A stretch of 64,000 nucleotides of DNA. Origin: Ptychodera flava (taxonomy: Eukaryota > Hemichordata > Enteropneusta > Ptychoderidae). The notes beneath the pieces were generated by a model, which was not told the DNA's origin, searched no databases, and saw only the letters and a program-made list of their open reading frames with translations. Shown piece by piece: positions 20,701 through 59,115 of this stretch; positions within the stretch are counted from its first letter, which is position 1, and each line of letters begins with the position of its first letter. Both the position numbers and the translations under genes were made by a program. Location: contig NC_091931.1 of the NCBI RefSeq assembly GCF_041260155.1, positions 11,389,861 through 11,453,860 of the forward strand, written 5' to 3'.

Positions 20701-23700
20701 TATGGCACATGTTTAGTCTTTGAATTCAAATTTAAGTGCAATTACAATCAGAGGTTTATAATGTGTGCCCATTCGTAAGCTTATAATGTAAGTTTGAAGG
20801 TAAAATCATCAAAATAATGAAATGGTGGCTTATTGGGCTTTTAAAGGGATATAGTCGTCGGAACTGCGCTCAAAGGTCGTATGGGACCCATACGACCCAT
20901 GGCAACAACGTATCCAAGGCACTATGGTGATTGATGACAGTTAAAAAATGTCTGTCATAATCTATCATCGTACAATTTAAATGTTGCAGCTATGATGATG
21001 AGGTGCATCTAGATATCGTGCAAGAAATACATTGTTTGTAAACAAGAAACTCGCACAGGCGCAGTTCCGACGACTATATCCCTTTAAGTGATTTCTGTAC
21101 ATTGTATAATCCATATTTTACCTGAAATTTTACACAGATTTAATAAACATGCCTGTGTGCCTTTGTTTCATAATGGCATTTGACACCAAAATTTATACAT
21201 GTAAGTGTTTGTTGCTGATACCATAACTCTCTGACGTCATTTCACTGAACATATGCATTTCTACTGTCTAAGTTATAACATGTTAAGCTTGACACACAAA
21301 CAATACAGAAAAAGTACATTTACAAACTGGGAATTTGTTAATTCTTAACTGATGCATTAAAATACCTCTACAGCGTTACACACACTCAAACATGTATGTA
21401 GATCATAAAGAAAATATCCATCTAAAAAGCATTGCTGTTTTGATATCAGGTTGGAACTATGAATCTGTCAAAGGTTTGCTGGATGCTGCCAACAAGAAAG
21501 GTCTGAAGGAAGTAGATCGTTGGGGAGGACTATGCTTTGATGAAATGGCAATTCAGGTATTCTTTTTTGATTTCAATCTTAAATTTCCATGTGCATTTAG
21601 CAGTACAATATACACTTAAAGGGGAAGGTTACCCAGCGATTGTGTGTTCATGAATAAAAAATCTATGAAAAAATGGTGCGAAATCTGTCTTTGTTATCAA
21701 CTTTCACTTACCGATAGTGCGATGGCACCCATTTGGAAACCATATAGGTTATGGGTAGAAGTGATGTAAGGGCCTAGGACTGGACTGACACTTGTAGGGA
21801 AGCCCTACAAGTGTCAGTGCAGTCCTAGGCTCTTACCTCACTTCCACCTATAATTAAAGGTTTTCAAATGCGTGCCACCGCACGATCAGTAAGTGAAAAT
21901 TAAATAACAAAAACAGATTTCACACCATTTTTTCATAGATTTCTTATTGCTAAACACATAATTGCTGGGTAACCTTCCCCTTTAAAGACGCCCATTGGCT
22001 ATAAAAAGAGGATTACAGATAATGTGAATACTGTCAATAGGACCTTGTACAAACTAATATGGTTATGAGCCGTATGTTTACCAAACAACATAAATGATAC
22101 TGTGTTGACTGGTTGATTCACTTTGAATTCACACACTCTTTCAGGAGGATTTGCAGCTTTTAAAGTGTGGCGGAAAATCTAAGCTGGTTGGCATTGTTTC
22201 ATTGGGAAACTCATTCACAGATATGCAAAGATTGATGAAAGGTAAATATCCTAATCAAAATTGTCCTGGACCAGTGTTTTTTTTTAATTTCTAACTTTTT
22301 TATACATTTGAAGCTAGCTCACTGACAGCTTAGTAATCATAAAAATGTTACAGAGCTCAAAAAGTATTAATGGCTGAGTACAATAAGCTTGAAACACTGT
22401 CTCTTACCTTTTGACATATTCTAATTTCTGCCAGTCTGACCCTGATACACATCTTTCCTCAATGTATATGTATAGGAAATTGCACTACGCCTCTGTTATT
22501 ACAGATACTGTAGTTGCAATGTTGAAATAGAGATTCTGTACCTCCACTCTGGAAATACAGATACTGTACTTGCACTCTGGAAATACAGATACTGTACTTG
22601 CACTCTGGAAATACAGATACTGTACTGGCACTCTGGAAATACAGATACTGTACTTGCATTCTGGAATTACAGATACTGCACTTGCATTCTGGAAATACAG
22701 ATAGTGTACTTGCATTCTGGAAATACAGATACTGTACTTGTACTCTGGAATTACAGATACTGTACTTGCATTCTGGAAATACAGATAGTGCACTTGCATT
22801 CTGGAAATACTGATACTGTACTTGTACTCTGGAAATACAGATACTGTACTTGTACTCTGGAAATACAGATACTGTACTTGCACTCTGGAAATACAGATAC
22901 TGTACTTGCATTCTGGAAATACAGATACTGTACTTTCTCTGTGGAATTACAGATACTGTACTTGCACTCTGGAAATACAGATACTGCACTTGCATTCTGG
23001 AAATACAGATAGTGCACTTGCATTCTGGAAATACAGATACTGTACTTGTACTCTGGAAATACAGATACTGTACTTGCACTCTGGAAATACAGATAGTGCA
23101 CTTGCATTCTGGAAATACAGATACTGTACTTTCTCTGTGGAATTACAGATACTGTACTTGCACTCTGGAAATACAGATACTGTACTTGCACTCTGGAAAT
23201 ACAGATAGTGCACTTGCATTCTGGAAATACAGATACTGTACTTTCTCTGTGGAATTACAGATACTGTACTTGCACTCTGGAATACAGATACTGCACTTGC
23301 ATTCTGGAAATACAGATAGTGCACTTGCACTCTGGAAATACAGATAGTGCACTTGCATTCTGGAAATACAGATACTGTACTTGTACTCTGGAAATACAGA
23401 TACTGTACTTTCTCTCTGGAAATACAGATACTGTACTTGCAATCTGGAAATACAGATACTGTACTTGCATTCTGGAAATACAGATACTGTACTTTCTCTC
23501 TGGAAATACAGATATTGTATTTGTACTCTGGAAATACAGATACTGTCTAAATTTTTTCATTTATAAAAACTGAAGTACTTAATAGTTGTGCTAGTAATTG
23601 TCTGGCAGTGACATGTAACCTTTATAGAGGTAAGCATGTCAAATACTTTACTTATACTATCTTATGGGTACATATAGCTATTGTTGAGATGAATCATTCT

Positions 23701-26700
23701 TGGAAATCACTAACTGACCAAGGATGTTCATAAAAAAGTCTCAAGCAAGGTAAGGCAAGGGTTACTCAATATGTTAAAATTCTGATTTTTATAATTCTTT
23801 CGACATTTTGTTTTGCCCTGGCCCCTTACACAGTATGTGACAATGCTGGTTTGCTATCAGACATGCTAACAGGAACTAATTGGGCAAAGTGACTGTTGAC
23901 CTGGTTGTAGCAGCCAAAGTAAGTGGTACCCGCTTGCTTGCAATCCTGAAAGCTAGATCTTGCAGCTCACAACAGAAGACACACAATGAAGAATTCAATC
24001 CATTATATTTGTAAAAGAAACAATTTGATGTTAATATAGTTCATCCACAATTTGTTTTCTCATGACACTGGAGGTAACAGACTACAAATATGCTTGAAAT
24101 AAATAGTTTGTAAGTCTATTTATTGCAAACTAGGAGTTACTACTACATGTATAAATGTAATTTGTCCATTTATAGATTGCTGGAATGCCAATTTCTTAAC
24201 TGTCTGTATTACATAATTTGTAGTGTCCAAAATAAAGTATTCAATTTATACTTATACATTGGTCGCATATCCAATGTTCCTGAAGGAATATGATCATTGG
24301 TTATCAATTTCAGCATGTTTCCCTTAAAGTATCAGCAAGGATATGATTTCTCACAGTGAACAATTTTTTATGTAAATTGGAAAATTTACTAGTCCTGTGT
24401 GTTCTGTAATCTCTCTAATGCTTGTGCCATGTTACGAGGTAGCTTATTTAATGAGGTGAGACTTCTGAAGCTGTGCAAAACACAGCTCATGGCCCACTTC
24501 TTACAGTGACATCCCCATTAGCTTGAATTACAGGTCGATAAACACCACTGCCTACATTGCGGTATACTTCTAAAGATATTATTCCATCTAACTTTGACAA
24601 CAACTTTTCCTATCACTTTGTCTCCATCAATTCTAATAATTGCCATGTTTCCAATTGCAATTGGTACTCTGCAAGCAGGCCTTGATCTAGCTGGCCTGTT
24701 TCCTAATCGGCGTGTTTCTCTTCTTCCTCTTTGCTGCCGGATGCTATTTGTTACCTAAATAAAAAGAGACAATATTATTGAGCCATTTTCAGATAAAATA
24801 TTTAAATAAGGAAATAAATTTGCTTCGAGGTACGTCTATGAATTCAAAACATTCTAACCCTTTGAGCACCAAAGTCAATTTTTGTTGCCTTTATAAAATA
24901 TACACCTTGATATTTTTTTCAGATTTTGCTAAAATTTTGATGAAAAAGTGAGCCAATGAAATGTAATATCCATTTGGTAAAATAATCAAAACATTACTGA
25001 AAAATTCTTAAAAATTTGTAAAATGTTGCACTAAAATTTTGGCAGCAAAAATTACAGCGTTCAAAGGGTTGACTATGATCTTTGAAGCAATAAATAGAAG
25101 AACAATAATGAATCACTTGAAATAGTTGTCACAATTTTCGTTTACGAACCTGCCGGCCCTCCTTTCTCTTGTGAGTAGTCGTTGAATCGTGTCAGTTTCC
25201 TTCTGGACTTGTGGTGGTAACTGCTGGGGGAGCTGGTCTGTAAGAATAAAGCTCATCAAGGTACCAGTTTGTAGTTTGATTGCTCATCGTAACTGTCTCT
25301 GTCTTGGGATTGTCCAGGAAAGTCCTCCACCACTCAAACTGAGCAAAACTGAGGACATCCTATGATCAGAACAACATCTTAGGTAAGCTAACATGTACAT
25401 ATTGCAATGTCTGTGACATTTTTCATTTCAAATGCATTATTTTATTGATATAGAGGAATACTTTGAGTTCTGTATTACCATGCTACCATGAGGAAGTTGG
25501 ACACCATTCGATAATGAGATATACATACAACCTCTTTTTTTCAGTCAACAGTTGGAAAAGTATAGCCAAGATAATCACTCATCCATCATTTTGAAAGAGC
25601 GATCAAAAGATACACTTAGATACATGTACCTTGCTTTTGGCAATACTCTGTCTCACTTTCCGAATTTCAGCATCATCGAAAGTCATTGGAGCAATATCTG
25701 GATATCCTTCAGGTATGCTCTGTAAACCATTTTCCTTTTTGAATATTTCCAACAGTCCATCTTCTGGTTGCCAGTTGAAGTCTGTGCTCCAGTTTTTATA
25801 CTGGACTTTAACTTCCCCATTCGATGCCAGATATATTCTGAAATGACAGTGTTTTAACTTTAAGGAAATGACTCTTGATTTGGCTAAGACCATCATCAAC
25901 AATATGATAGACTCAAGTATCAATGTCAAGGAAATAGAAATATAGGGCTTCATAAACATGAAACATTTGGGCCGGCTAGTCCATGTGTCATGAGAGTTCC
26001 TCAAAAACAAAGTACCGGTATAGTGTTCCTCATGAACAAAGGAAATGTCTGCATCAAAAATTGTTAGAAATAGCTGTTTTCTGTTATCCTTGATTACAAA
26101 AGCATTTGATTGGCTACACACAGAAGAGTACCTGTAAACATGTGGAAATGACTGATTGTGAATTTCTTCTAGTTGAGGTAGCAACCAGTCTCGGATGTTC
26201 CACACAGTTTGGGAAATGGTTATTTCTTGCTTGGGATCAGTAGAATTCTCCAACACCTTGGTAAGTTCTGGCATAGTCTTTGCATCATTCTCCTTTAACT
26301 TTTGTGAATACTTGGAAAATCTTTGATCAATATCTTCATGGGTGTGCCCAACCATAAGAAATGACATCACAATCTGAAATTTATGATTAAATACATGAAC
26401 GTACTTTACTGTGTTTCTGTGTCTATATGCATGAATGACAGTCAGTCTAATGTCTGCCTTATCTTTTGTATTACCACGGATAACTTTCTATGGTTCACTA
26501 CATCATACATTTATTGTATGAGCCATTCCTTCACATATTTAATCCTAAGAAGATAAGAGTTCAAAATGCAGTATATAACTTTTCTCATCGCTTGTAACGT
26601 CAGTTTACAATTGAACATGATTGTGATTCATCTCATAAAAGATTCAGTTGTACAATATTGGAAACAAAACATTATTAACTATGGTAGTGCACTTAAAGCC

Positions 26701-29700
26701 TTATAATCCACATTCTTATCTGACCTTGACCTTTGACTTGTACTTGTAATTCATAACATTTCACTTATGCTGTCATCCAATCAAGGTATGAAAGGAATAG
26801 AGGAAAATCGTGATATATGATAATATAACTGGAATGAACGTTACATTATTACATCATAAGGAAATGTAAGTGTGAATATGCACAACAATTTCCTCACCTC
26901 TTGTAAGTATTTCCTTTTGACAAGATAGGCCATGAACCCAATGAAGAATTTATTTTTATTCTCCCTCACACAGTTGTCAAGTTGTACATATAATTTGGCA
27001 GGAAGCTTCCCATCTTTCGATTCCTTATGCAATGTATGCAAGAGACATGTTAAGGTAAGGTTTGTATCATGGCAGTATTGGCAAAGGTCAACCAGAGTAT
27101 ACATCTTCTTATTTGCATGACACAAAGCACCAGTGAAGTGAGTTTTCAGTTTATATTGTCCAATGCCCTGTAAATAAAGGTAGTACATTCTGTGACATTC
27201 CATCATAATTAATAATACACTGTAAACATGTATTTTATCTAAAGGTGATGTTTGTATATGCGGAAAAAACTTCTATGCCAAAATTGCTAAAATCACATGA
27301 TGCTTTGCCTGTGCAGCAAAATGTAAGAATGTTGGAATGTATTACTAGATTAATCATAATTTCCAAAATGGAAGTACACTCTTCAAAAGTATGTACATGC
27401 CTCTATAACTCTTTGGATTGTTAATACAATAAATTTATTTATATGCGACAAACATTGAACAGCGCTATTTCCATCTTGCAATTACTTTGAAATAGAATTT
27501 AAGTTCATACATAAATGAAGGAAGTGATTGCTGAAATATATCAACCTATATTTTATGGAATATAAAAAACAAAATTACTTTTACCTTTGGATCTGCTTTC
27601 TTTTGATCCATACCATCAATTATGATAGACAGAATTTCATCAGGATTTTTCTCAGCATCGGTTCTTCGCTGGTAGTATGCTTCCCTTTCCTTTCTGAAAT
27701 GTGGTTATGCAATGTAATTTAAGGTGAAAATAAGTCTTATTATGTCGCATGGGAATGTAGTTTTGGTCAACATGAATGACTCAGCTTTGTCAAACTATTC
27801 CAAAAATGTTATCATTCTTATGCTTTTGGAAGTGTAAAGTCTCTGTACATTTTGTTATACCAAACATTAATTTTAAAACTACTTTCCCTTGATTATTATA
27901 TTACCAAATGACAATCCAAAAAACAGACACTTTTTGAGTCATGTTATATTCCTATTTCAAATAATTAATAGCAAAATTCGCAGGTTTTGATGACTATAAC
28001 ATAGTCTTTTTGGGCACTGTGATGTAGAAAGCACATGTATTTTCTGTTAAACATTTATAAAAGTCAGCTTCAGTCACATACTACATCAAAGAATCATTCA
28101 TGTTGTGAAAAAAACTAAATATTGGTCAATAACAATAACACATACTGTTGTCTGTTTAGATGTTCATTTCTGTAAATGAGAAGACTTTGTCTGCTCTCCA
28201 TATTGACTTCCTTAGAAATGGCATCTTTTAACAGCATGCAAACCTTGCACTGCGTCATTCTTGGCATCTACAGAGGAAACATGATTTTATTGTTAACTAA
28301 ATATTATAAACATGTATAGTGAGGTCAATTAATGATTTTGTAAAGAAGTGCCATGCATTACACTCCATTGAAACACAATGAAAATTATCCTAGGTAACAC
28401 AGTAACACAGCTTGCAAGCCAGATGGTTGTATTGATTAAAATATCTGCACAACTGTAGCCAAACAGAATATGGGTAGTACAATAGCTTACATGTAGAAAA
28501 CATTTGTCAAGCAATAGTGATTTGTACATACACTTATATCAATTTCACCTTCTCTTTTTTAATTTAGCTAAAAAATCAATTGTTATATCAAGGTTTATTG
28601 TAAATGATATTTACCAAGTTACTCATCATTGTGTCTCAGTAGTGTTCCACTACTTATACATGTGTTTGTTTTGAACAATCTCCATCTATTTTCACTGTAA
28701 CGACTCAGTGATATCAATTGTATTTAATACACTGGTTATTTTAATGCATCAAACAGAAGTAAAACCACTGAAACATTATCGAGCATAAAGTGCACTGTAC
28801 ATGTGTTTGTGCAAAAACTGCCTTATTTACAGCTAAAAAAGTATTCTGTAGTATGTGAGCATACAGATAAATGATTACATACCTTTGGAAAGGACACATG
28901 ATGAAAGTGTTTCTTCCAAAGCTTATAAAATTGTTTCTTCTTTATCTCATTTTCCACATTGCAAACCCTATACTCATTGTACAGATCTTTTACTCTCAAG
29001 CATGAAGGCATTAGAATTCTTTCCATATCTGGAGAGTAGTCACCCATTTTATCAACGTACCATTTCATGAAACCAACTGCAACACTTCCTATAAATTGTG
29101 CAAATTATAAATAAAGAACGTTATCAACTGAGTTCTCAGTCTAATACTACATGTCTATTTCAAAGTTTAGAAAATTTTGTGGTCGACTGTTTTCTTATAT
29201 TTGTTTCAGTAGGATGACAGTCTTATTAGATGGACACTTTATTATGGGCCAAAGATTTGATGTATTGTATAAATCATCGCAAATGATTGCTTGTCATTGG
29301 AGGGAGGCATCGTTATTTATTGCCTTGGGGTTGTAGGAATTGCATCGGAAACTCCGAATTTTCGAGTAACCTATGTAAAACTTTCACAACACCCCAAAGG
29401 TGAGAGCATGAGAGTGGGCCCCCACCTCTTGCATCAAAAATTTTGAGCAATTGTTTTCTAATAAAGCAAACGGAGAGGTGTTTCACTTGATTTTGCACCA
29501 GGTAACATTGTTTGAAAATGGCAATGAACACTGATATATTTATTACATTTTTCGCATCATCAGTGTTTGACAAAGTCACAATATTTAACAACCAAACAAT
29601 ACATTTTGACATACATTTTGTGAAAAACAGTTCTCAGTTTGCCAGAGATTGAAGGCAAAAGAATATGCAGGAATGAAAAATCTGCGACGTTCTTGTTTCA

Positions 29701-32700
29701 TTTCTCCAGCAATCAGCTTCTAGTGTATGGCTAGAATATGGTATGGCTAGCTGTCAAAATGGTTATTGAATTGAAGTCAATTAAAAAATGTTTCTGTGAT
29801 AATAAAGAATGAATTCACACAAGTTTAGTTTTATCCTTGATTCTGTGAAAGATTTGAGAAATTGATATTTGTAATGGTGCAGTTTTGTTGCCATCTGAGC
29901 AATGTCTTCAATTCATCTTTTACTGGTAAACATACAGTGTTTTCAATCGAGTTCGAACCTTCAAGGGGGAGAGCTCGAGAGGGTCCGGTGTCCCCCTCTC
30001 GCATAACAAAGTTTGAGAAAATGTGTGCAATGGTGCAATTTGAGAGGTGTTTATATTTATTTTTTGTACAAAAAAATGAGTAACCCCCTTCTTCCTCTCC
30101 ACACTTAGCACCCCCCTTTAAGTTTTCAATATTTTTAGCGAACCCGCCTCACATTCCTCCGATCCCCAACGCCGTAAATAATTATGGCTCCCTAAACATG
30201 CTAAAGCGCAATCTAAAATAGTGCTTAAGTTAGACAGTTTAGTTAGGAAAGAGCAAATGTTCGATGTATCAGACAGATTACCATAAAACGTTTTTCCTTC
30301 ACGGGCTGATCATCTGCAACTAGTAGATATGTCAACAAGTTTGAGTTTACCTTTTACGCCCCTGCTGCATCGAGGAAAAGCCTGTGACGTCAAAACTTGG
30401 TTAACGCCAGATGAAACATACCTCTTGAGACGCCAATAACTTCTTTCAGATAGTCCCATACAGACTTTGCTCCAAGCGAATCTGTTTACAGATAATAACA
30501 TAGATGAAGCCAAACTGAAACGCCTAAGGCATCACTGACAATCCTGAGGTTAAATGTGCTATTTAAAACCAATCTTTGTTTTCCTTCGGCTGCATGAAAT
30601 CCCGGGGTGAAATTGCAGAAGTGCACATGGTAAGCGACAGGGGTCACGTACGTGAAGAGCTTTCCCTTTACAAGTGAACACAAACCCAGAGTCTTGTACA
30701 TTGGCCTACCATGCATACTTGATTGGCCTTTGTAGAAATGGGATCCACAAAAAAAAATCGATTTCTTGGAAACCGTATTTTATTCCTGTCTCTCCTTATA
30801 CTTCGACCGATCACCAGGGTCCTAGGTCTGGACAGATACAGCGAGCATGCATATGCGCATTGCAACACGCGATTTAAACGCACGCTTGTGCAACAGATCT
30901 CATGACCTTCAAAACCTGATGGACAATTACCAGCGCACGCCTCGTCGGGAGGATATTTCTTCTCTACTTCACGTTCCTGTCACAAGAGCATAATAACTTT
31001 GGACTGCTGCAAGCGATTTTTTGGTCACTAAATAAGGCCGTACGGATTCAATAGTTTTCGACCGCTTTTCTCCCTATAAAGGTCGTGTTTTTCGTACCAA
31101 CTCAAAGTTTTGGCAGGGATTGAACGCTATCAGGAGCACAGGTGCTCAAAACGTTGCCTAGGCGATTTTTAAAAGAAATTAGTGATAATGTTAGCGTGAG
31201 ATTAAAGGTAGAACTTAATAGAAGGGTGCTTTTAGTGCACTGCATTGTAACGCACCCGAACTTTAATTTTGACACCTACCGTACCGCAAGATTTATAATT
31301 TTAAAATTTCAATGAATATGCACCTGGGTATCTAAGCAAGGTTTCAGCCATGTTTGAAGATTGCTAACAGACTCTAGAATATGTGGCGATTTTTTTTGAA
31401 AAATACCTAATTCTCGAGCTTAGTACACAGTGTATGACGTCACGTTTGATATTAAAATAACCATAGGGCCAGAGGTCATGGCGCGCTTGCCACGGTCGCT
31501 TGTCCCATGAATCTGGGTCAGACCAGGATGGCGACCAGCGCGGCCTCTCAGTTCGGGGGGAAATTGGATCGTTAATTGTGAACACCAACTCCAACGCAAG
31601 CATGTAAAACTTTAGCTAAGTATCTATTTCGATAGAGCTGATATGAAACTACCTCTCTGTTAATTCTGAGTTCTGCTATCTTTCTGGTTTTGCAGTAAAT
31701 TGCTCAAAAGCGGGCCGATAGATTTGTGTCACAGCAAGGGCTCAGTTTGACATTATTTTACAAAATAACCAACGAAAGATTTTGGAATAAAATCACCGAA
31801 CGGCATAGTTCAACATGTAATTTACGTATGCGGTAATTGTCATTTATTTGAGCGCATATTTTACGTTATTTTTCGACGGAAAAAGTACTCCGAATCGCCC
31901 GGCCCTATTGACAGTGTGTGGCTGAGTTGATAGTGTCTTAGCTCTGCATGGCAGGGTAGCTGTGATATCGCAGAGCACCGTCCCTCCAGACGGTGCGCAG
32001 CGGTACTTGTGGCGTGTATCGAACGCGCTCGGGTCATTGAGGTCAGCGCCACAGTCCCGCTGCGAGCCAACGCATAGGCTTCGTTGGCAGTTTACGACGA
32101 GACCGACCGGTATCATAGATTTAGCTTGCAAAATAATGAACTATATTAGCCTTTGAATAAATAAACTTGCATCATCTTTATCATTGACTATCTGAGACTC
32201 ATTCTGTACACCTGCTAACTTTCTTGAAGATAAGAACACGTATTTTCGACCATTTTCCCGTGAGCCGTCGATGGTTTCTACGATGTTTGCTCGATCGCGC
32301 GTAAACGCACATGACCTCAATGACCCGAGCGCGTTCGATACACGCCACAAGTACCGCTGCGATATCACAGCTACATGGCAGGGCTGTGTGTTACCGGCGT
32401 TATACGGCCTCCCACCGCAGGCCTTACTACAAATCCAAGTACGCCTTATCAGTAGTAGTTGCAGTGCTGTCCACGGCCCTGGAGGGACCGTGTATAATCT
32501 CAGCAGAACGCGAACGTGTCATCAAACTACAGCTGACGAGAGACAACAAGCCCATCAACGCGTAACTCACTGCAACGTGTTACTTGCGTTCAAGTAGGCC
32601 CACTAGTAGACTTGGTTCAAGTCTGTGATTTGTGCATGTTTGAGTGGAGTGAACGCAATGATTTGTATTTTGCTTTCATGTGAAATGCGTGTGAGTGAAC

Positions 32701-35700
32701 GCTATACGGGGAGTTTCACCCGGAAATCCGGCAGAAACTAACTCACAATATGGGCCTACTGCGCAGACTCAAAGGTAACGCATTCAATATAAAAATCGCT
32801 GGGAAAACCTGCCCCTGAGCTACCAAATTCCGAATAGGTTTGAGCGAAATAGGAGAGACACAAGAGAAACTATTACAATGATTTTATTTTTTTTAAATTC
32901 ACTGACTTGAACCAAGTCTAGCCACTAGGTGAATATTCGCGCAAGTGGCATGTGATATTTTTATGACGCCTTCTTCTGAGTTGAAATTTGAACGTGTGCC
33001 ACGATCTTTGCACGTTTGGTGTACGTTTGGTGGTAAAAATCCTCCATGATTGAGGTTACTTATTAAAACTTTTTCATTAAATCGACTCACCGTCCCTCCA
33101 CCGGAGGGACGGTGATCGACTTTTTTAAGATCCTCCAAGCACATCTCTGTCTTCTTGTCTACAACAGTGTTTCCGTTAAGCAAAATCCTGCGTATTTCAA
33201 GCAAATTGTTCTGAAATACGCAAAAAAAAAAAAAAAAAAAAAAATCACGGCTGCATAAACTAATACGCATCGACAAATGCCGCCCCATGACACGGACGTA
33301 CTTGGCTCGCACTACATGGCCAGAACATGGTTCAATGCAGGATAAAATTAGAACATATGCACCTGCTTGCAAGTGACATTTATCATGGCATAGCAACATT
33401 TAGCGGAACGCAACTCCTTATGCAACATGAGATTTCATCATCATGAAGCGCCATGTCAATCAGTTCTGTACAGACGAGTCTACGTTATTGGTAACACCAT
33501 GGAGGAGGTAACACAATACAGTTAGGCCTAATGGTCATTAGTATTACGATGCATGTTATTTGGAAAGTGTTTACGGGTGACGATTTAGACACTGTCGAGT
33601 TGCATTCTTGTGAGGCCCGCTGGACTCTGTATCTGTTTTTGGTTGGCCCTTTGAAAACACTATTAAATTTCGTGGTCAGTATTTCCTTTGAACATGAAGT
33701 CATTAGGCCGCGCGCTCAACGATCGTATACGAGACTAGACTCTCGCCAGTCGCTTGTACCGCTTGGTCTCGCCTATCGGCGTAGCTTCCGGTATTGGCTG
33801 GTACAAGCACTCGACCTCGCGCCTTCGGCGCTCGATCGCCCAAGTTGGCTTGAAAGAAGGCACGAGGGACTGTCGACAGTCTAATACGAGACATGAATTA
33901 CGGCATTGCAAGCGCTCAGCTAGATATACCTTTTAAGCCCCCAGGCTATTGTTTTTTGTTAATTAAGCATGCGGTAAAAACCCCAAGTTCTACAGAAAAT
34001 ACTGCCCAACTCACTTCACTACTGATTCTCACTGTACGCATTTTGATACATTTGAAGCAAATAAAAACACAGTTGCGAAAAATAGTATGCAAGTTTTGAA
34101 CGGAAACGCTGCATACAACATACAGCGTCACCCTATAGCGATGGTGATTTACATGTATTATAAAATAAAACTAATAGCTTTTACCTGCAAACGATTATGC
34201 CGTGGACAGTAAACTTCTCTCTTCCAAAACTTCTGCCGATGTTCATAAGTTTGTACAATTCTATTAATTTACTATATCTTGCTGATCCTTGCGGGAGGAC
34301 GTAAATCCGTTGCCGAAGCTCTAGAACAGTATCCTTGATATTTTGTCGACACAATTATTTCCACAGCGGCATTGTTCCGTAAGGTCTGCCACGATTTTGC
34401 CAATTTGAAGCTCGGGCGCTGGTGCCTTCCGCCGCGGCATAGTTCCGACTTTTGGCCCACGGTACTAATGTAACATTAGGTTCGCTTGGCATGAAACAGT
34501 CGCCTACTTCGATTATGTTATGCCAAAGCGGCAGTTGAATAAGGCGCCAAATTCACAAAAAAATTGTGATTGGACAGTTCGAGATAACTTGCGGAGCGGG
34601 GAGGGGTTATTTGCATACGTAATGTTTACACACTGAACGAATTGCAACTTCATCAAACACTAGTAGTCCTGCATTTCATTAGTTAACGTTCCTTTGCTAA
34701 CATCCCATTGCTGTTCTTCATCGCATTCACTGTTTTGATCAAATCATGGACGCATCTGACAACATGGAATCTGTGTATACTTTTCATTCGAGTCCATCAA
34801 AATCAGCACCTACGATACCAGTAGAAAAAGATGTTTTTGATGGGGTATGTGAACTGGATAGTCAACCAACGTGAGTATTTCTCGACACTTCATCTGAAAT
34901 TATCATAGGTTTGCGGGTGGCTGTTGAAAAGAGGTGCCCTTCCCTTCATTTGTGTTTCAGTTCAATGTAATGAAACACGCAGCTAGTGTAACAATGTAAC
35001 AATGAGTTGCGTTAACTTCTTAATTTACATCGATGATACTTTCACGGTTCAAGAAATGGTTAACATTTTACATGTATGGCGACAATGTTTACCTTCCAGA
35101 TTTTAGCTTTCTCTACAAATGTAAGGACGAAATTGCGCTTACACACTTTCATTCATACATTTAAAGACAGTTGTTAACAAGTCTCGGTTTCCGCTTCCAA
35201 AATACAATTCTCGTTTCAACGCACTTGGGTATCTCCCTTGATTTGTCAGAGAGCGTATACCCATGCCATGTAAGAATATGAGTTATGCGTTAAACTTGCC
35301 TTACGCAAAATCCCGTTTCCATGGATGAAAAATAACACAAAACGAGATGTGTAATGTTCGGAATATGGAAAAACATGGTGGTATGATTAGAGAAAAGTAT
35401 AAATGGCACCGCAATTATTGAAATGAGGAGAGAACCTGGGAAAATGAAATAAATGACTGAGAAAGGGTATTCTTGGCCAGTGTAAAGTAGTAGATATGAT
35501 TTCCTTAATATGTTGCGTGTTCACATGTAGTATTTTTTGGCGATGTGTGTCTCTGCCATGCAAGGAGGTGAGACACGTTCATATTGAGCGTAAAACCTTA
35601 TATCTGCGCACGTCCCAGCAATACAGTAATTATACATCTCTGTCTAGACAATAGCATGGAGAATAATAGATTGCTTGCCACAATTATATTTGCTGATGTG

Positions 35701-38700: not shown

Positions 38701-41700
38701 CGTAGGTCAGCGGAGCGGAAATATATTGCTCTGGCTCGCGAGAATGCGGATTAGCTGGTGACGTAGGAATTTTAAGAAAGGGTTTCTTGACCGGTGGGAG
38801 CACTCCGAGAAGGCGTTTATCGACAAGGATTAGCGCGCATTATTAACGTCTGGTCCCATATTTATTACATTTATTTATTTGAAAAAACAATTGTCTAAAT
38901 CTACTTAAAACGCTCCCGATCGCAACGTCGATCGTAGCTACGGGAATAAAAGTATACTTGATGATTCGCCCTGTATCCACATGTTCCAACCTAAACTTCT
39001 TGATTTCTACTCCCCTGCTGAAGTACGTCAGTGTGGCGTTCGCCGTGACTAATACGAGATGTGGCGAGCGAGCAGCGAAAACTCTGAACTGGTTATTAGT
39101 TTGAGATGACTGTTTAATGTTTGAGGATGGTGGTTGAAAAGCGAGAGCTCAGTTATGTGATATTATAAAAAAACCGCAATCATATCCATCCATACCCATT
39201 TATAATCGATAACAGGAGGTCAAAATTACAATACAATAGATATAAACATAGACACAAAACGGCAAAAGAAAATACAGTAAAGCACCGGTACACACAACAA
39301 AGTCGAACCCATGAAAGAAAGATACATATTTGATTTGACCGATTTTGGAAAGAAAGTGGCGTTCAAGGTGTTTGCTTGCACGAAATGATAGATGTCTCGC
39401 GGACAAGCAACCGGTCTCGACCTCTTGGGATACGCAGGCATGCTGAGATGCTTCATCATGATCGCATCCAGGCCTCTTGGGCCTCATAGAACCTATTGTA
39501 ATTGCTAAATTAGACTCAACTGCCAGGCAAAATGTAAAACTACTACCAATGCATTACAAGTTAGCGTACTTCAACAGGATAATTAACTTGTGAAAATGGA
39601 CTGAAATTGTAATGTGTTGTTAATTGAAAGTGTGCGCGGTGGAGCCAGGCAAGCATAGGGCTAGTGATGAATTTATTAGACAGCTATACTTCAATGCGCA
39701 TGTAGTCACATCTGGTGTCCGGTTTCTTGACCTCTAGACACTAACTAGGATAATTCGTTCGATTATTTTCTTATCATAAGTGAACTCTTGCACTGGAAGC
39801 CGACTTGTTTTGACAATTATAAAGACGTTCAGAAATTGGAGTTAAAGAGGGTAATAATGGGGTTCAATACTACAAACATGTAAATTAGTACAACATTATG
39901 TCACGTTGTGACACCCTAGTAACAAGTATTTTTTCTTCACAATAGTTTACATTTATATATTACTGTAATTGCAGGCTTGATATACAGTGGTGGTCACTTG
40001 GAAAAGATGAGGTTTCAGCAGGAGTGGAAGTCAAAGTGGGAAAAGAGGGAATTTCTCTCGACAAATATATGAAAGGTAAAACCCATACTGAAGAAAAAGT
40101 GCAGCAATCATGAAAATTTCAACATTCCAACTTCAAATTTCAACTCTTATTGTGATGCTTATAGCCAACAAATATATCATCATTTTTACTTATGTAATAT
40201 CTATTCGCACCACCGTCAGCAACACGGAGCTTATATGCTAGGTGGATGTTTGGCTATTGTCTGTTAAAAACATGTGTTTCTCAAAAATTGCTTGTCAGAT
40301 AACGGTGATAATTGGCATGCAGGCTCCTAGGGATTATCTGAAAGTGATATACTTAAACTATAATAACATCTTCTATTTTGCATTTGTGAGTAATTTCTGC
40401 AAGTTTTTTTCAAAAATTTTGTGTAAAGAAATCAACTTGCCAGACAGTTTTGAGATTTGGTATGCATGTTTCAAGCGATCATCTTTATTCAATTTGTTTA
40501 AATTAAGATGGAATCTGTAATTTTTGTATTTTTTGGCAATTTCTAATATTGTTGGTCAGAAACCCTGTTTCTCAAAAACTACTTCTCTGATAGCTTTGAT
40601 ATTTGGTAGACATCTTCTTTTGGATAACTTTTACATGACATGTTTAAATTATGATTAAATCTTCAATTGTATGGTTGCAGCTATTTTTGAAAATAGCTAT
40701 CACAGATATGCACCTTAAATAACGTATGTATCACATATATTTATTCTCTACATAACACAGCAGAGCCCTATCATCTGTTAGGTCACTTGTTCTATCTGTT
40801 GCATTACCAAAGTGAGCATAGTTCTTTACTGGTCAAAATATTATGCCCATGATGGCATGCTTACTTTTTCAGACATTGGCAAGAGCGATTCATTTGGATA
40901 TGTGAGATCTGTACATGCTGGTGAAGGTAAACTTGTAAAGGTATGTCATAACTTATATCGAATATCCTGACTGTAAACATGTGTATGTGTGTATTTGACA
41001 CTCTTCAAAGATATAATCATAGCAATCAACAAATAATTAGGAAATGAGAATTAATTGACGTGTGAGAATTAATAAACACATATGTCTGTATACAAAAATT
41101 ATTATAGACTGGTATCATTAGATTTCATTGATTACCAAAGATACACCACTTTGGTATTTTTACAGGTAAACTTCAGCAATAATAGCGTGCACTTGAATTG
41201 GTTGAACTTCCGTCCTACAACGTACTTTTCATATCAACATTTCGCCAACGTAAAGACTGTTGCAGAATTTGTCAACAAATTCAAAAATAGTTTACTTTGG
41301 AATGTGGCAGAGGGGATGCCAAGTGATAAACCTGACGAAGTGCATGACAGCAGTGCAGATACTGTCATCTTGACAGAAAGTGACGCTAGTGGTTCAGATG
41401 ACAGTATTGAAGAGGCGAGTACATCAACACACGAGACAATTACAAAACCATATGAGGACCATCATGGCACCAAATCAGACAAACTTGATGAGGAAGAAAC
41501 CAACGTCAAAATAATGCAAGCAATGGATCACAGAATTGCAAAATGCTTTGTAGGAAAATTTACCTTGAATATAGACAATCTGAAACCACCCAGCATTGAA
41601 AGGAAAGTTCGTGAACTAAATGTAAAACATGTGTCAAGTATTAGTCAGAACCTTTTAGATGATAGAGGACGAAATCTAGAACTTTCAACTCCATTAGTTG

Positions 41701-44700
41701 GATTAATCGACCCAAAGGACTGTCGGAGTAAGGATTATTTCAAACCTGACAAGGTACATGATTATCACGTTGAAGTCATTGACGGAAATCACAACTTTCA
41801 TGCACAAAAGAGGCACTATTGGTTGGAGAGGATGCAACCCTGAACAAACGGGAAGTATGTCTGTATGTAGGCCTAACAAACGAAGAGTGCAAAAGACTTG
41901 GCATAAAGAGAAACTTGTCGACATCAAACTGTCTCCCAATGTCCGACTGGGATTATATCATGTTAATTAGGGATGCGATTAAGAAAGAATTTACAGATGG
42001 ATGCACACCGGGCAGAGATACAAAGTCAAATCAGTTTTGGAGGAAGCTGTATGCCATGTTAGGATTCAAGTATGAGGTAGCTGTGAAATTTTATTAAATA
42101 ACATTAAGTCCATGTATCCTATCTGCATTTGCTCCAACATTTTTATATAAATGCAGCCCGTGACACTAATTAAATCAATACGGTGTTGAAAAAGGCAGAA
42201 TTTGAGAATGAAGCATGATTGACAAAGCATGTTTGGCAGTGTAATAAGACTCTGAAGTTGTAAAAAAGACCCAAAATCAGTCATCATTACATTTTATGAA
42301 ATGGATTAAACAGCAGTCCTGTTTGTTGAAGGATTCTCAGAAACTTTACTTCTTCAATAGACAACTTGTTTACTTTATCGATATGAAAATGATTGTGTGA
42401 TATGGATTTGTTTGCAGAAAAGGGTACTTGATGCAAAGAGACCGATCCAAAGTCTTGCAAGATTACCTGATCTTGAATTTGAGATTGTGAAAAAAATATT
42501 TGAGGGGAAACCATCACTTAAAGCCAGTGCCATAACAAAAGACCTTCAAGGGGTAAAGAGCATGGATGAAAGACTTAAGCTTCTACAGTCTTTTCTTGTG
42601 AGCAAGAAAGAATTCCAACAAGCATCAATCAAAGCAAAGGTACATATTATGTATAATTAACAAATAATGAGTGCAAGTCTTTGCATATTGTTTGTTATCT
42701 TGATCAGCAATTCTGCAGTTACAATGCTGTATGTTCCTTCTTACTACTTATATAGTAAGAACTACAGCATAGATTATTTCTTTTGCAAAGCAGATTCCAA
42801 GAGGAAACTCTCGACATGCCTCCCTATACATTTTGTTTTGTAACCTAACTGTTAATCATGATCTTACCTGTAGGTATGCTATGTGTGCATACTGCTATGA
42901 GGGCAAGAATTGATAACCATTTATTTATTACTTTGAACAGGGTAACGATTTCCATGTGCACATAGAAGATGGTTCCTTCTGTATCACTCAAGGACGGCGG
43001 AGATCACATGGTCCCAACATGATTATGTCATGTGGAGATGAGACATACAAGCTGACACCAAAAGCAGCGAGAGAGCTGATGAAAAGTAGTAAGTATGCAA
43101 TCTAGATTCAGCCAGTCTTTCCTTACTTTCTGTTACAGATTTTAGTTGAGTTATGCATGATAAATGTTCTTATCAAGTAGGTGCAAGTCAGTAATTTTTT
43201 TCTATCCATAGACTTGCAGATGCTATGAACAAATTGGTCAAGTTTTTAAATAGTAAGACAACTTTTCACTTTGAACTTGAATAATAAAATTCTCTATTTT
43301 GCAAAATGATTGTAATGTTAGTGTCCACTGTGATTCGGATACAGAGGCTTCCGCAGGTTAAGAATAAACTACTTCCTGAATTGAAGACATATTGTTTTTG
43401 GTACTTTGTTCATTTTACCTGCGACCATGTGCATTGAGGGGGTATTATACATATTAAGTACCTGTTTTAGTCTCAACCTTTTAAGTTGAAATATCTCCTT
43501 GACTGAGGCTAGTCCAGTTGTTTTGATATAAGGGATAAAAGTTACTATGGATGACCCTATTAATAGAGGATCCATAATTTTGTACTTTTGTTTTAAGTCA
43601 ATATAGTATTTAAAGAATAAACCAATTTTGACAAAAAAATTCTGACTACATCATATTTTGCGTAATAGTTTGCGAAGTGCCAATTTTTAATTCTGATTTC
43701 CTCGGACAAAATGAAGATAATATATTGTTTGTTATGGCATATCCACACCATGTGCTTGGATGGAATTTTGTGTGGAACAAAGTCTTACAGTGGATTGTAT
43801 GAGCTATGACTTTGTTCTTATACATTATTATTCATTTCTTCTCTAACCTTACAGAAAGTGATGGGAAAAGGAAAGAAAACAATGAAACAAAATGTGACAA
43901 ACAGAAGACAATGAAGAAGCGTAAATGTAAGTGTTTTCCTGACTGTGATAATTTTTTTTCGATATGACATGTGAAAATGTCTTTTCATGTGATATTCGAC
44001 ACAATGCATAAAATGGCCTAATCAAATAATTTGTAATATTTTCCATTGCAAATATAGAGGACATTGGTGTGCATAGAGAAAAATAAGGTATTGTTGCTCT
44101 TTTTGATCATCAGTAAAGTTGAGCTCTTTATCAATATGACCTGTCATTTCCCTTGACAGCATCAGACATGCACAAATCATCTGACACTGCAGAGAGGGAA
44201 AAACACTCAAAAGTGGTAGGAAAACAAAAAACTGATCAAAGGACCAGCAAGGATCGTGGTGAGTTTACATATTTATTATTAATTAAAAGTAGCTTTGACC
44301 ATTTGTATGAAGTGGCACCTTTCAGATAAACGTCTGTGAAATTTACTTCATGTAAAACTTTCTTCTGTTTTTTTTCCTAGGTGGTGTAGAGCCATCATCA
44401 CCTTCCAATGCAAGAAAGTTGAAAGGTAATGTCAATATAGTGTGCTTTATTTGAGGGAAATGGGTACACACACTGAAAATTCTCCACATATTTAATTGTA
44501 ATGGTGTTAAAATTTTAAAAAATGTGTTCATGGTAAGCATAATGAGGTTAAAAACCATAACTTTCAACTGTTATTATATTGTTTTGAAGTCAGCAATATC
44601 AATCACATCAAAATAGTGTATATATTTCCATATTGACACTAGATGTTCATGCACCAGTAAAAAGTGGATTGTTGATCAGAAAATCTTGTATGGAGCAAAC

Positions 44701-47700
44701 TCTTACAGTGGATTGTATGAGCTGATGACTTTGTTCTTATGCATTATTATTCATTTCTTCTCTAACCTAACAGAAAGTGATGGGAAAAGGAAAGAAAACA
44801 ATGAAACAAAATGTGACAAACAGAAGACAACAAAGAAGCGTAAATGTAAGTGTTTTCCTTACAAGCCTTTCATCTCATTGATTGTGATAATTCTTTTTCA
44901 CATGTCACAAGAAAGTGTCTTTTCATTTGATATTCGACACAATGCATAAAATGGCCTAATCAAATAATTAGTAATATTTTCCATTGCAAATATAGAGGAC
45001 ATTGGTGTACATAGAGAAAAAGAAGATCTTGTTGAGCTCTTTATCAATATGACCTGTCATTTCCCTTGACAGCATCAGACATGCACAAATCATCTGACAC
45101 TGCAGAGAGGGAAAAACACTCAAAAGTGGTAGGAAAACAAAAAACCGATCAAAGGACCAGCAAGGATCGTGGTGAGTTTATATTACTTATCTATTATTAA
45201 TTAAAAGTAACTATGACCATTTGCATGAAGAGGCACCTTTCAGATAAACGTCTGTGGAATTGGAAACTAGGGCACTGAAGACACTAAAAGTTTTTAAGAA
45301 CTTACATACATTACCTGTAGCATTTAACTTCATGTAAAACTTTCATTCTGTTTTTTTCCTAGGTGGTGCTGAGCCATCATCACCTTCCAATGTAAGAAAG
45401 ATGAAAGGTAATGTCAATATAGTATGCTTTAGGTGACTGAAATCGAGAAACTTGGAAAATTCTCCCCGTATTTATTGTAAAAGTGTTCAAATAAAAATGG
45501 TGTTCTTGATAAGCAAAATGATGACAAGCGAATGAACTTAATGTATATTTCAACTGATATTATATTGTTTTGAAGTTAGCAATAGCAATCACATCAAAGT
45601 AGTGTATATATTCCCATATTTACACTTTATGTGCATGCATTAATAAATATTGATTGGATCATCTTGTGTGAAGCAAAGTCTTACAGTGGATTGTATGAGC
45701 TGATGATTTTGTTCTTATACATTATTATTCATTTCTTCTCTAACCTTACAGAAAGTGATGGGAAAAGGAAAGAAAACAATGAAACAAAATGTGACAAACA
45801 GAAGACAATGAAGAAGCGTAAATGTAAGTGTTTTCCTGACTGTGATAATTTTTTTTTCGATATGACATGTGAAAATGTCTTTTCATGTGATATTCGACAC
45901 AATGCATAAAATGGCCTAATCAAATAATTTGTAATATTTTCCATTGCAAATATAGAGGACATTGGTGTACATAGAGAAAAAGAAGATCTTGTTGAGCTCT
46001 TTATCAATATGACCTGTCATTTCCCTTGACAGCATCAGACATGCACAAATCATCTGACACTGCAGAGAGGGAAAACACTCAAAAGTGGTAGGAAAACAAA
46101 AAACCGATCAAAGGACCAGCAAGGATCATGGTGAGTTTACTTATCTATTATTAATTAAAAGTAACTATGACCATTTGCATGAAGAGGCACCTTTCAGATA
46201 AACGTCTGTGGAATTGGAAACTAGGGCACTGAAGACACTAAAAGTTTTTAAGAACTTACATACATTACCTGTAGCATTTAACTTCATGTAAAACTTTCAT
46301 TCTGTTTTTTTTCCTAGGTGGTGCTGAGCCATCATCACCTTCCAATGCAAGAAAGTTGAAAGGTAATGTCAATATAGTTTGCTTTATGTGAGTGAAATGG
46401 GTACACACTGAGAAAATTCTTAACGTATCGACAATTTGGTGATAGGGATACAAGTATTGCTACCAATTTCAGCACGAATGAAATCTATGAAGCTCTATTC
46501 AATGGTTTAAATGAACTGCATTGATTGGTTGGCAAGTTGTGCCAAATGAAGAATGATACAGATGGTTACATGATGAAAATTAGTTTTAATAGTTTCCATT
46601 TGCAAAGCAGCAGGCATATATTTAAATTATGATTAACCAAATTTTACAATAAATGTATCAAGCAAAGGATGGTTTATTCAACCTGAAGTATTCCCAAAAT
46701 ATCTAGCTATTTAAATTTGTTTATGTCTATCCTTTTATGTAGGTGAATTGAAATTTCATTGTTTTTACACGTACAGTAGCTGATATTGGATGCTGAAATC
46801 AATTTATTACCAGTATGAAGTAAAAATTACAGGGAGATTTATAAATAATGGTGCTTTTAAGACGAAAATGTTCACATTTACTTCTTTAAGTATATGTGAA
46901 ATATCTATTAGTACTAAAAGCTTATAAATATGAAAATGTTTTCACTGTTTAAATGTAAAACCTATATCAAAATTTCAAAGGACACATATGCACTTATAAA
47001 CATGTAATTGTGGTATTATTATGTCCGGTTTGTTCTGCAGATTCAGAGTCAGTGTCACAATCAAGTGAAAGAAATGGAATCAATAGTGAAGGTAAATGAT
47101 GAAAATTAATGTTTTACTCTGACACTTTGAAATGTAAGTAATAGCAATAGCCTTTTAACAAACCTCCATCTATGTATTTCAAATCATGCTACAACTGCCT
47201 CAAAATAGGCGTTATCATAAATTGTTCAAATTTCTTGATACAAAAACAGTATTAGTAAGTAACTGGTTTATCCAAATATTATGTGAAGTACTTTGTTTAG
47301 TGCAATGCACACACACACACACTACAGATGCCCTTACCTTTGTATCAAACTCTCTTTCCAGATGACTTTCATTTTGAAGAAGTGAGATTTCTATCCACTG
47401 ATGGTGTTTGGGACAAATTGAAGGAAGGGCAGATGCTTCTTTGTAGACCATTCAAACAAAAAGATTACAATCCAGAAGATCCTTTCATATTCAGACTCCT
47501 CAGCAAATCGGCAAAGAACAAGAGATTTCAAGGCTTACTTATGTGTGGGGAGCTGGAGGGAAATTATAAGGATGGTGATCAGGTTTGGGCCAGAAGTCAA
47601 TGTCATGTAGAAGTCCGTGTTGACAGGGTTATGGCAATTATTTCATGGGAAATGGGATCCTCAATGCCTGTTGGTTTGGCAAACAAGATAAGGGAAATAT

Positions 47701-50700
47701 ACTAAAACATTACTTGCATAAATTGAAATATACAGTAACAGAAATGTCAGTGACCAACAATGTTTCAGCACATACAAGATTAAGTTCAATTCTTTTCAAT
47801 AATACTGATGAGAAAATAGCTTTTACTTGACTTAGACCTTAATCATCAAGGTGTAATGTTCAAAATTTTAATCAGAGAGAATTTCGTCAGTAGTTGTTCA
47901 TTATTATTTGATTACCAACACATTTGCTTGCCAAAGTTTAATGTAGTAAAAATAAAAGAACAAATAAAATTCTTACCTTTTCAAAACTTTACTTTCTCTG
48001 TCTATGTTGTAAGCAATATTGGATGTCAGATGACACACATACTGCAATATACATCACCTAATTGATATTCTGTGGCGAAGGCTTTCATGCTTTCCTTCAT
48101 TAATATGTCATTATTTATCATGGCGAAAGAAATGGTTCATGTCAATTATATTGCATGAATCTTTTATTTTGATGAGAACCTCAGTATTAGTAAGTAATCA
48201 GTAGACAGTAAACCTACTTCTAATGTAAGGATTACAAGTACAGTGTCTGGATTTCCAGATGGCAAGAATGGTATCATGATTTACAGGTTGCAAATGTGGT
48301 GTCTTGATTTCCACATTGCAAGTACAGTATCAGTAATTCCAGAATGCAAGTACAGTATCTGTATTTCCAGAATGCAAGTACAGTATCTGTATTTCCAGAG
48401 TGCAAGTACAGTATCTGTATTTCAGAGTGCAAGTACAGTATCTGTATTTCCAGAGTGCAAGTACAGTATCTGTATTTCCAGAATGCAAGTACAGTATCTG
48501 TATTTCCAGAGTGCAAGTACAGTATCTGTATTTCCAGAGTGCAAGTACAGTATCTGTATTTCCAGAGTGCAAGTACAGTATCTGTATTTCCAGAGTGCAA
48601 GTACAGTATCTGTATTTCCAGAGTGCAAGTACAGTATCTGTATTTCCAGAGTGCAAGTACAGTATCTGTATTTCCAGAGTGCAAGTACAGTATCTGTATT
48701 TCCAGAGTGCAAGTACAGTATCTGTATTTCCAGAGTGCAAGTACAGTATCTGTATTTCCAGAGTGCAAGTACAGTATCTGTATTTCCAGAGTGCAAGTAC
48801 AGTATCTGTATTTCCAGAGTGCAAGTACAGTATCTGTATTTCCCGAGTGCAAGTACAGTATCTGTATTTCCAGAGTGCAAGTACAGTATCTGTATTTCCA
48901 GAGTGCAAGTACAGTATCTGTATTTCCGAGTCAAGTACGAAATCTGAAATTTCCAGAGCGCAAGTACAGTATCTGTATTTCCAGAGTGCAAGTACAGTAT
49001 CTGTATTTCCAGAGTGCAAGTACAGTATCTGTATTCCAGATGCAAGTACAGTATCTGTATTTCCAGAGTGCAAGTACAGTATCTGTATTTGCAGAGTGCA
49101 AGTACAGTATCTGTATTTCGCAGAGTGCAGGTACAGAATCTCTATTTCAACATTGCAACTACAGTATCTGTAATAACAGAGGCGTAGTGCAATTTCCTAT
49201 ACATATACATTGAGGAAAGATGTGTATCAGGGTCAGACTGGCAGAAATTAGAATATGTCAAAAGGTAAGAGACAGTGTTTTGAATTCTGTATCATACAGT
49301 ACATGTATATGTAGCTGAGAACATTAGATTAATTGCCAGTGTAAGCCCACATAATTAAGCACTTTACAGAAAAGAGCTAATCAGTTTGGATTATACCACT
49401 GTATGTCATACTACAGGAAAACCTGTTTAAAACTGGACACCTAAGGGACTGAGAAAACTGTTTGGTTTATAGAGGTTCCTTAAACATGGCAATCTATGTG
49501 GAAGAGACTTGGAAAAGTGTTCATTCTACACACGTTTCAATTTAGACAGGTTTCACTGAAATAAGAAAAGGCCTAAAATGGCATGCCTTAGTTATCAAAA
49601 CGACCATGCGGTGGAATGTTTTTATGGCACCTACCTAAAATCTGTGATTGCCTACATCTCTACTTTTCCTCAATAACGGCTCGTAAATCTGCATATTTGA
49701 CAGTAAACCTATCATGAAAACCTTAGCCAGTTTGCTTCTCTAACAATGCAAGCTTCATCATCAGTATAATTTTCACTCAGAGAAATGCAACTTAAGCTAT
49801 CCCCTTTCTATGGCACACGCACATACTTCAGTGTAAAAAGTACAAGTACATCGTACTAGTATATAGAACATACACTACTGTTATAGCCATAGCTAAAGAA
49901 ACATGAAATAAACACATGACTAACTGAAGTGGTCTACTTTCCCCTTTTACAGGAGACTGGAAAGCAGAAACCGCGACACACGTTCTGCAGTTTGTATTCA
50001 TAGGAGATGGTGGGTTGCGATATCCCATAGCCCACTTCCCAACAAGGGAGTGCCCACCAGCTACTTTATATAGAATATTTTGGGAAGGGGTTCAGCTACT
50101 TCTAAAGGCTGGATTTCAGTAAGTATCACTAAGTAAGTTGATTTAAGGATGTACCAGCGCTACGCATGCATGGAATTTGTCTCTTCCAGGCGCTACTCAT
50201 AAAAATAAAGGTATTACGGCAAAATAAGACACCCCCCCCCAATATTTGGATTCTAATTAAAGGGACGAAGTTGCTCATTTTTAACATAATCGTGGATTTG
50301 TTACTTCTGAAATATCATTTATGTTCATTTGCTAACTGAAATCTGCTTAATATGATTGAAGTAATCATGTGTTTTGTCCTATTACAGGATGATGTGAGTA
50401 GATAGTGTCAACCAGAGACTGAGTCCATTTCAGTGAAATAACTGACATAAATAATATTTCAGAGAAACTAACATATCCAAAATAATATCAAAAATGAGTG
50501 ACTTTGTCTCTTTAAGGATGAACATGTACACCCTGAGTAAAATGCTACTCAGTAAAGCTATTGAACTAATTTAGTCTGTGTAAATGAACAGCTGTATATG
50601 TTTTTAAATTGTCTTTCAGAATTCCTGAATGAAGATAAGACATTGATATGTTGGCTGCTTCTAAGTTCACTTGGATTTCCACATTGACTTTGTATCAAAA

Positions 50701-57786: not shown

Positions 57787-59115
57787 TCAGTATCCTGGTT
57801 CAAAGTTTCTCATCCTAATCTCTATGTCATGTTGAATTGTCAAGTATTTTGCTTGTCAACACACCCTGTACATGTGTAATGTCCATTCTTTATAGCTGAT
57901 AAATGAATTCCAGTCCAGACTTGAATACAATGTTCAACAATAACAATGCTGACTGTACTCTTAAAGGATTCATTGACAAGCCTCTAGTATATACGTGGGA
58001 AGTCAGTATGGATGAGGGATTCACATCAGAAACTGTAAAACACAAAACAAAAAGTACTAAAAAATAGCTAAAATTTACAGCTAATGGAGCTTTAAAGAGA
58101 ATAACTTTGTCCCTTTGAAAACAGAATGAGGATTTTACATGGAGCATGCAGTACAGTTTAACAAGAAACTGAAGAGAATTACAAAAGTACAGAAAAAATA
58201 ACCAAAAGTATCAGCCCAGACATAGTTGTATGTCACGCCACTTAAAGGGGAAGGCTGCCCAGTAATCATGTGTTCATCATTAAAAAATCTATGATAAACT
58301 GATGTGAAATCTTCCTTTGTTATTAAAACCCTTTTGATGCACGTCACCATATATGCAGACACACACTTTTGCATTCCTGTTCTCTGTACCAGTCATTTAT
58401 GTATCATCTTGGCCATTATTTGGTTGCAATGGTTACAAGAAATTTTGCATGGTAAAATTTATTTTTTGTTGAGTTGTGGTAAATACTGCATCTTTCAATA
58501 ATGGGTTCATTAGGTAAATTGAATAACACAATTATCTTTTATAATTTTGTAACAATTGTCATTTTTCATGTGAGATACAAATTAATACACATGTACATAC
58601 AACTTACCAATATTTCAATAAATTTCTAATTAATATCAATCCAGGGTATGTACTACTTTGTTAATGTCTCTGGTATCTTTTGAAAAACTTATAGTGATAA
58701 TGAAATCTATATTTTTAAGGAAATATTGCAGGCAAGTAAACTAAGGAACCCAACCCCAGATTTGCATTTGTTGTTTCAAAACAGTCTTCAACAACAGACA
58801 AAATATATACAATTTTTTTTCATGCTGAATGAGTTTGATTAACCCCTTGATTAGTCAGGGGTTAACTTTTTTAGTTCTAGCATATGGTGGAAGCTGACCA
58901 GTGTCCCTTACCCGTATTATAGTTTTGTTTGCATTTGCTTTCTTGAATGACATACCAATCGCATCACTATCCCCATTAACCTCAGTATTCTCCCTACGAA
59001 CCGTTTGATAGCATTGCGGCTGGATTTCTATTGTTCAGACAAAATTAAAACGCTGTAATTGCTCTTGGAGAACACCGATTCTATTTGTAGCATAATCATA
59101 AAGAAAAAATATTTA
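57787..59115. other. Spacer with MITE fragments
   Basis: Contains an AGGGGAAGG-family fragment at about 58,241-58,330 and, at about 58,060-58,110, a segment (AAAATTTACAGCTAATGGAG) inversely related to sequence just left of element copy 2 (about 53,111-53,140). This suggests copy 2 landed inside an older small inverted-repeat element. No gene was seen. Confidence 0.5.

Follow-up and report, generated by a model that had tools for sequence, protein, structure and literature searches.

Structure of the element

A stretch of 64,000 bp from the genome of the acorn worm Ptychodera flava (contig NC_091931.1, positions 11,389,861 to 11,453,860 of the forward strand; hereafter 'the window') contains at 22393..49279 a 26.9-kb putative transposon, which encloses a gene of the DUF7869 family and a second, divergent gene. 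The two termini are inverted copies of one another, perfectly matching over 151 bp counted inward from 22393 and 49279; inward of this terminal inverted repeat (TIR), the final 18 columns of the local alignment contain one mismatch and one gap. The element has AACACTG ends, and TTGA abuts the TIR edges exactly, at 22389-22392 and 49280-49283. Since the match fails at five bases, the target-site duplication (TSD) is exactly four base pairs long. Near each end, on the inner side, 28-bp units form an array, and the two arrays are mutually inverted. The following features delimit the unit:

22389..22392, no strand: TSD TTGA, left copy (end alignment and letters)
22393..22543, plus strand: left TIR, 151 bp, matching the right end without a mismatch
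22500..23546, plus strand: left subterminal array, 37 copies of the 28-bp unit TACAGATACTGTACTTGCACTCTGGAAA (repeat analysis, ungapped unit matching)
48235..49172, minus strand: right subterminal array, 33 inverted copies of the 28-bp unit TACAGATACTGTACTTGCACTCTGGAAA (repeat analysis, ungapped unit matching)
49129..49279, minus strand: right TIR, 151 bp, perfect
49280..49283, no strand: TSD TTGA, right copy (end alignment and letters)

The perfect inverted match of 151 bp is far above chance expectation. The 4-bp direct repeat, taken by itself, is weak evidence, being expected at approx. 1 in 256 at one fixed boundary; its position is exactly at the TIR edge. By ungapped matching, the units of the left and right arrays have on average 1.8 and 1.6 mismatches, respectively, and no further unit with up to 7 mismatches was detected on either strand elsewhere in the window. 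Including the arrays, the arms measure approximately 1154 bp (left) and 1045 bp (right). Within the 28-bp unit sits an interrupted palindrome, TACAG-ATA-CTGTA, whose 13 bases are about half as variable as the other 15 (mismatch 0.042 vs 0.085 on the left, 0.040 vs 0.073 on the right); this conservation is suggestive only, because palindromes that short easily arise by chance. An earlier interpretation of this DNA made from the letters alone (the sequence-only reading) had described inverted ends of about 150 bp, long inverted 28-bp arrays and a TTGA direct repeat, all of which were confirmed; its proposal that these features delimit a discrete giant TIR transposon housing a DUF7869 gene and a divergently oriented partner is likewise supported.

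The DUF7869 gene and its predicted product

On the minus strand, five stretches from 29088 down to 25630 splice in frame at GT-AG sites. The closest protein, P0001, comes from Ptychodera flava and is annotated as uncharacterized; comparing it with the window revealed one additional intron within the largest stretch and two further 3' exons. P0001 shows several substitutions relative to the window and therefore represents another allele or another copy. The gene matches PF25273 (DUF7869) with E-values of 4.7e-34 and 1.6e-30. Its exons are as follows, the predicted first catalytic position lying in the exon at 27585..27693:

24392..24754, minus strand: last coding exon region, with stop/frame change vs P0001 (tblastn of P0001)
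25147..25359, minus strand: exon with stop/frame change vs P0001 (tblastn of P0001)
25630..25837, minus strand: exon (in-frame joining, tblastn of P0001)
26132..26373, minus strand: exon with GHTHEDID, third acidic position (PF25273 match, tblastn of P0001, family alignment)
26898..27167, minus strand: exon with QLDN..ENKN, second acidic position (PF25273 match, tblastn of P0001, family alignment)
27585..27693, minus strand: exon with DGMDQ, first acidic position; nine P0001 residues absent (joining, tblastn of P0001, family alignment)
28146..28267, minus strand: exon with 41 of 41 residues identical to P0001 (joining, tblastn of P0001)
28883..29088, minus strand: exon (in-frame joining; relatives have a similar stretch)
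34184..34410, minus strand: probable N-terminal exon (CxCGxxC region) with a frame change, placed by a weak match (tblastn of P0005, E 4e-5) and sequence

Among 3083 candidates drawn from 5.8 billion proteins, 80 relatives were found at E ≤ 0.001, every one of them with PF25273. The named matches come from marine invertebrates and protists, namely a hemichordate, echinoderms, molluscs, amphioxus, a soft coral, a sponge, Heterosigma and Durusdinium, and are labelled 'uncharacterized', 'hypothetical', 'unnamed' or by the domain number only. In the prokaryote collection, the 42 pattern matches included three that encode a relative, all three on short (3.2-6.4 kb) contigs of metagenome bins (L001, L002 and L003); L001 and L002 are read as misbinned eukaryotic DNA, because their frames are broken as if by introns. 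The family was present in none of 14 control genomes. Neither 'DUF7869' nor 'PF25273' was mentioned in the literature searched, which comprised few subscription papers.

An alignment of 42 of the 80 relatives, led by P0005, has nine invariant columns, among them D280, D361 and D403. E400 is conserved at ≥90%, which is also compatible with a DDE reading. In the structure predicted for a DUF7869 relative, the fold is RNase H-like, with D280 on b1, D361 on b4 and D403 on a3; this predicted arrangement corresponds to that of DDE/D enzymes, whose RNase H-like core bears its three acidic residues on b1, on b4 and on the final helix. The DUF7869 sequence profile gave chance rows only against solved structures. 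The viral fold library yielded no match at E ≤ 0.001. Among the matches listed, the catalytic domains of Mos1/mariner and retroviral integrases share 5-12% identity with DUF7869 over the aligned parts. Mariner differs from the present element in size and termini, and its target duplication is TA. We conclude that the family has a predicted DDD-transposase fold, and that the DUF7869 protein presumably is catalytic and moves the present element. This assignment is the most useful result of the analysis: if DUF7869 proteins are read as DDD transposases, they would be reclassified as mobile-element proteins.

The companion gene and the ParB question

The exons of the second gene lie on the plus strand, divergently from the DUF7869 gene, and match P0081, another protein of Ptychodera flava (554 aa, 72% identity over 68% of the query), which is located on a 44.0-Mb contig. 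P0081 was the only relative at E ≤ 0.001 among 7994 scored candidates, and a protein search with its core region recovered itself alone among 1361 candidates. Its exons and candidate parts are the following:

40857..40940, plus strand: tentative first coding exon, outside all homologue coverage (sequence and splice site)
41166..42076, plus strand: largest exon; its frame is broken near 41805 (tblastn of P0081)
42418..42639, plus strand: exon (tblastn of P0081)
42941..43088, plus strand: exon (tblastn of P0081)
43753..46428, plus strand: segment of ~950 bp in three tandem copies, with a Lys-rich stretch that in two copies matches the C-terminal part of P0081 (tblastn, E 0.001 and 0.006) and in the third was recognised by eye
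47362..47705, plus strand: tentative alternative last exon, absent from P0081 (in-frame splice)

The sequence-only reading had called this companion 'ParB-like' without stating why. It contains a stretch V-I-D-G-x-H-N-F-x-A-Q followed by an N-L motif, which, judged by eye only, follows the motif order of ParB/Spo0J. P0081 matched no Pfam family at E ≤ 10, including ParB_N (PF02195), and none in NCBIfam; PHROGs returned a single row (E 0.16, function unassigned), judged to be chance. As a yardstick, 61 bacterial open frames (from 58 PF02195 loci) were chosen by length and a motif of the G-E/H-R-R type, 56 of which also carry a second ParB motif. Against these 56, hhalign of P0081 gave E 0.38, away from the proposed motif, and a comparison by position-specific scoring matrix was negative, the 61-frame version being in agreement. 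Shuffled versions of the queries scored as high against the ParB frames in 223 of 300 cases for P0081 and 194 of 300 for the pieces from the window. The AlphaFold model of P0081 (mean pLDDT, the model's per-residue confidence score, 37.1) was too poor for comparison with the ParB/sulfiredoxin fold. ParB likeness of the companion is thus unsupported at the sequence level.

The companion profile retrieved no rows from solved structures, and tblastn of the companion gave no match in phages and plasmids. The TIR had no match in phages, and searches of viral contigs with the TIR and array patterns, the DUF7869 alignment, P0081 and P0058 returned nothing usable.

Ten open frames from the stretch separating the two genes had no Pfam match below E 0.05. 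A perfect 50-bp inverted repeat with arms 266 bp apart (31996-32361) is perhaps a small element nested within the larger one, and 40246-40791 resembles, at ~66-72% identity, a repeat with a period of ~146 bp in the left part of the window (846-2253).

State of the present copy

Both genes had initially been taken to be intact-looking and multi-exon; they are indeed multi-exon and divergent, but not intact. In comparison with P0001, nine residues, among them the near-invariant P290, are absent shortly after the predicted first catalytic Asp. Stops or frame changes occur in the last two exons of the DUF7869 gene, whose probable N-terminal exon also changes frame, and the frame of the companion gene is broken relative to P0081. 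Because of the frame breaks in both genes, this copy is probably non-autonomous now. Perfect TIRs together with damaged genes suggest a fairly recent insertion of a decaying or trans-mobilised copy, or else assembly errors.

Relationship to known transposons

The size of the element alone has precedents: in the available part of PMC12477816, the maximum lengths of KDZ, EnSpm and Sola-1 elements range from 15.2 to 30.3 kb, with KDZ reaching 30.3 kb. According to the accessible description of Sola (PMC10741241), these transposons encode a transposase of the DDD type, duplicate 4 bp of the target and bear TIRs of 11-1124 bp, and some exceed 15 kb. The present element is alike in its 4-bp TSD (TTGA on both sides of the one copy examined), in its DDD transposase as predicted from the three aspartates, and in its TIR length, although the left arm, if the arrays are counted, just exceeds that range. 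Furthermore, Sola1-1_Ec32 of Ectocarpus, a 21.5-kb element, is described in the same part of PMC12477816 as carrying a gene with ParB-like and DNA-methyltransferase domains on the strand opposite the transposase. This weakens the initial impression that no described superfamily has such a gene pair. A second gene opposite the transposase is common to both elements, but the companion here has neither a methyltransferase nor a detectable ParB domain, and the portions of the Sola descriptions at hand make no mention of 28-bp subterminal arrays. These likenesses concern traits as described, by which Sola, above all Sola1, is the nearest known system and a candidate relative. On balance, we lean slightly towards placing the element in the Sola lineage.

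Several other groups were considered and dropped. EnSpm/CACTA elements have CACTA or CACTG termini at the element edge and a 3-bp duplication; with CACTG as the edge, AAA would be left on the left side and TTT on the right, which is no direct repeat. Kolobok and piggyBac require a TTAA duplication (PMC9587614, in part), as against TTGA here, and KolobokP combines TTAA duplications with long terminal direct repeats (same source). Ginger1, according to the accessible part of PMC2836005, has TGTNR termini and CCGG or CCGT/ACGG duplications, in contrast to the AACACTG ends and TTGA of the present element.

Interpretation and alternative explanations

With good confidence we regard 22393..49279 as a real, discrete, giant DDE/D cut-and-paste transposon bounded by TIRs and the TTGA duplication. 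Judged by its features, it would work as a giant Sola-type transposon: the DUF7869 protein would bind to the element's ends, cut it free and integrate it at a target staggered by 4 bp, and the divergent companion gene may encode an accessory factor. Our guess is that the companion protein could bind the ~70 subterminal 28-bp sites and so pair ends ~25 kb apart. Such accessory binding is suggested by the arrays together with the companion gene, and has a precedent in Galileo, in which internal TIR repeats carry additional transposase binding sites according to the part of PMC4079207 available. The element would offer a concrete system for how a cut-and-paste transposon coordinates such distant ends, given its ~70 repeated sites near the termini and a companion gene whose product might act there.

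The same core could also be filed differently, namely as an undescribed DDD superfamily, separate from Sola, with DUF7869 as its transposase and the companion as a fixed module. The absence of DUF7869 from the literature searched speaks for this, as do the spread of the family from a hemichordate to Heterosigma and Durusdinium and the combination of 28-bp arrays with AACACTG termini, unmentioned in the accessible Sola descriptions. However, Sola as described there agrees with the present element in its target duplication of 4 bp, its DDD motif, its TIR length and a further gene opposite the transposase, and protein searches found the companion in Ptychodera only, so that a fixed module is at most tentative; we hold this filing to be possible, though rather doubtful. 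An extended version, in which DUF7869 defines an undescribed giant DDD superfamily of animals and protists and its acorn-worm partner is a eukaryotic ParB-type clamp that would load on the ~70 parS-like 28-bp sites and slide along or condense the DNA to join the ends, seems to us unlikely.

A different reading would be a non-autonomous, foldback-like element whose repeat-bearing arms captured genes, the DUF7869 gene being a passenger or domesticated. In foldback elements such as Galileo, Tetris and a sea urchin element, tandem repeats lie within long TIRs (PMC4079207, in part), much as in the arms described here, and the DUF7869 gene is damaged in the present copy. 'Foldback' is, however, a structural label and not a lineage; the transposase here is DUF7869 and the duplication is 4 bp, as against 8 bp in P elements, and the predicted transposase fold of a gene lying within the TIRs makes a chance transposase passenger less likely. 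We consider such a capture improbable. Finally, the analysis covered one copy of the unit and long arrays are difficult to assemble, so that an inverted segmental duplication or an assembly artefact could be imagined in place of a transposon; yet the arms end exactly at a 4-bp direct repeat and enclose a predicted transposase gene. An inverted duplication is disfavoured because such an event gives no reason for a TSD, and we regard either origin as very improbable indeed.

Other features of the window

Rfam gave no match across the window. P-like exons had been mentioned by the sequence-only reading; the single P-like match found lies outside the element, to its right, in an open frame on the plus strand (52108-52698) with a match to PF21789 (TNP-like_RNaseH_C, E 8.8e-6), and is perhaps the remnant of a P-type transposon. 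Directly left of the element, a 370-bp stretch (21616-21985) is 85% self-complementary and resembles a small foldback or miniature inverted-repeat transposable element; related pieces of 86-88 bp are located at 58239-58327. Two arrays of 226-bp tandem repeats occupy 61185-61991 and 63201-63999, and the consensus of the first contains several AGGTCA-like half sites.

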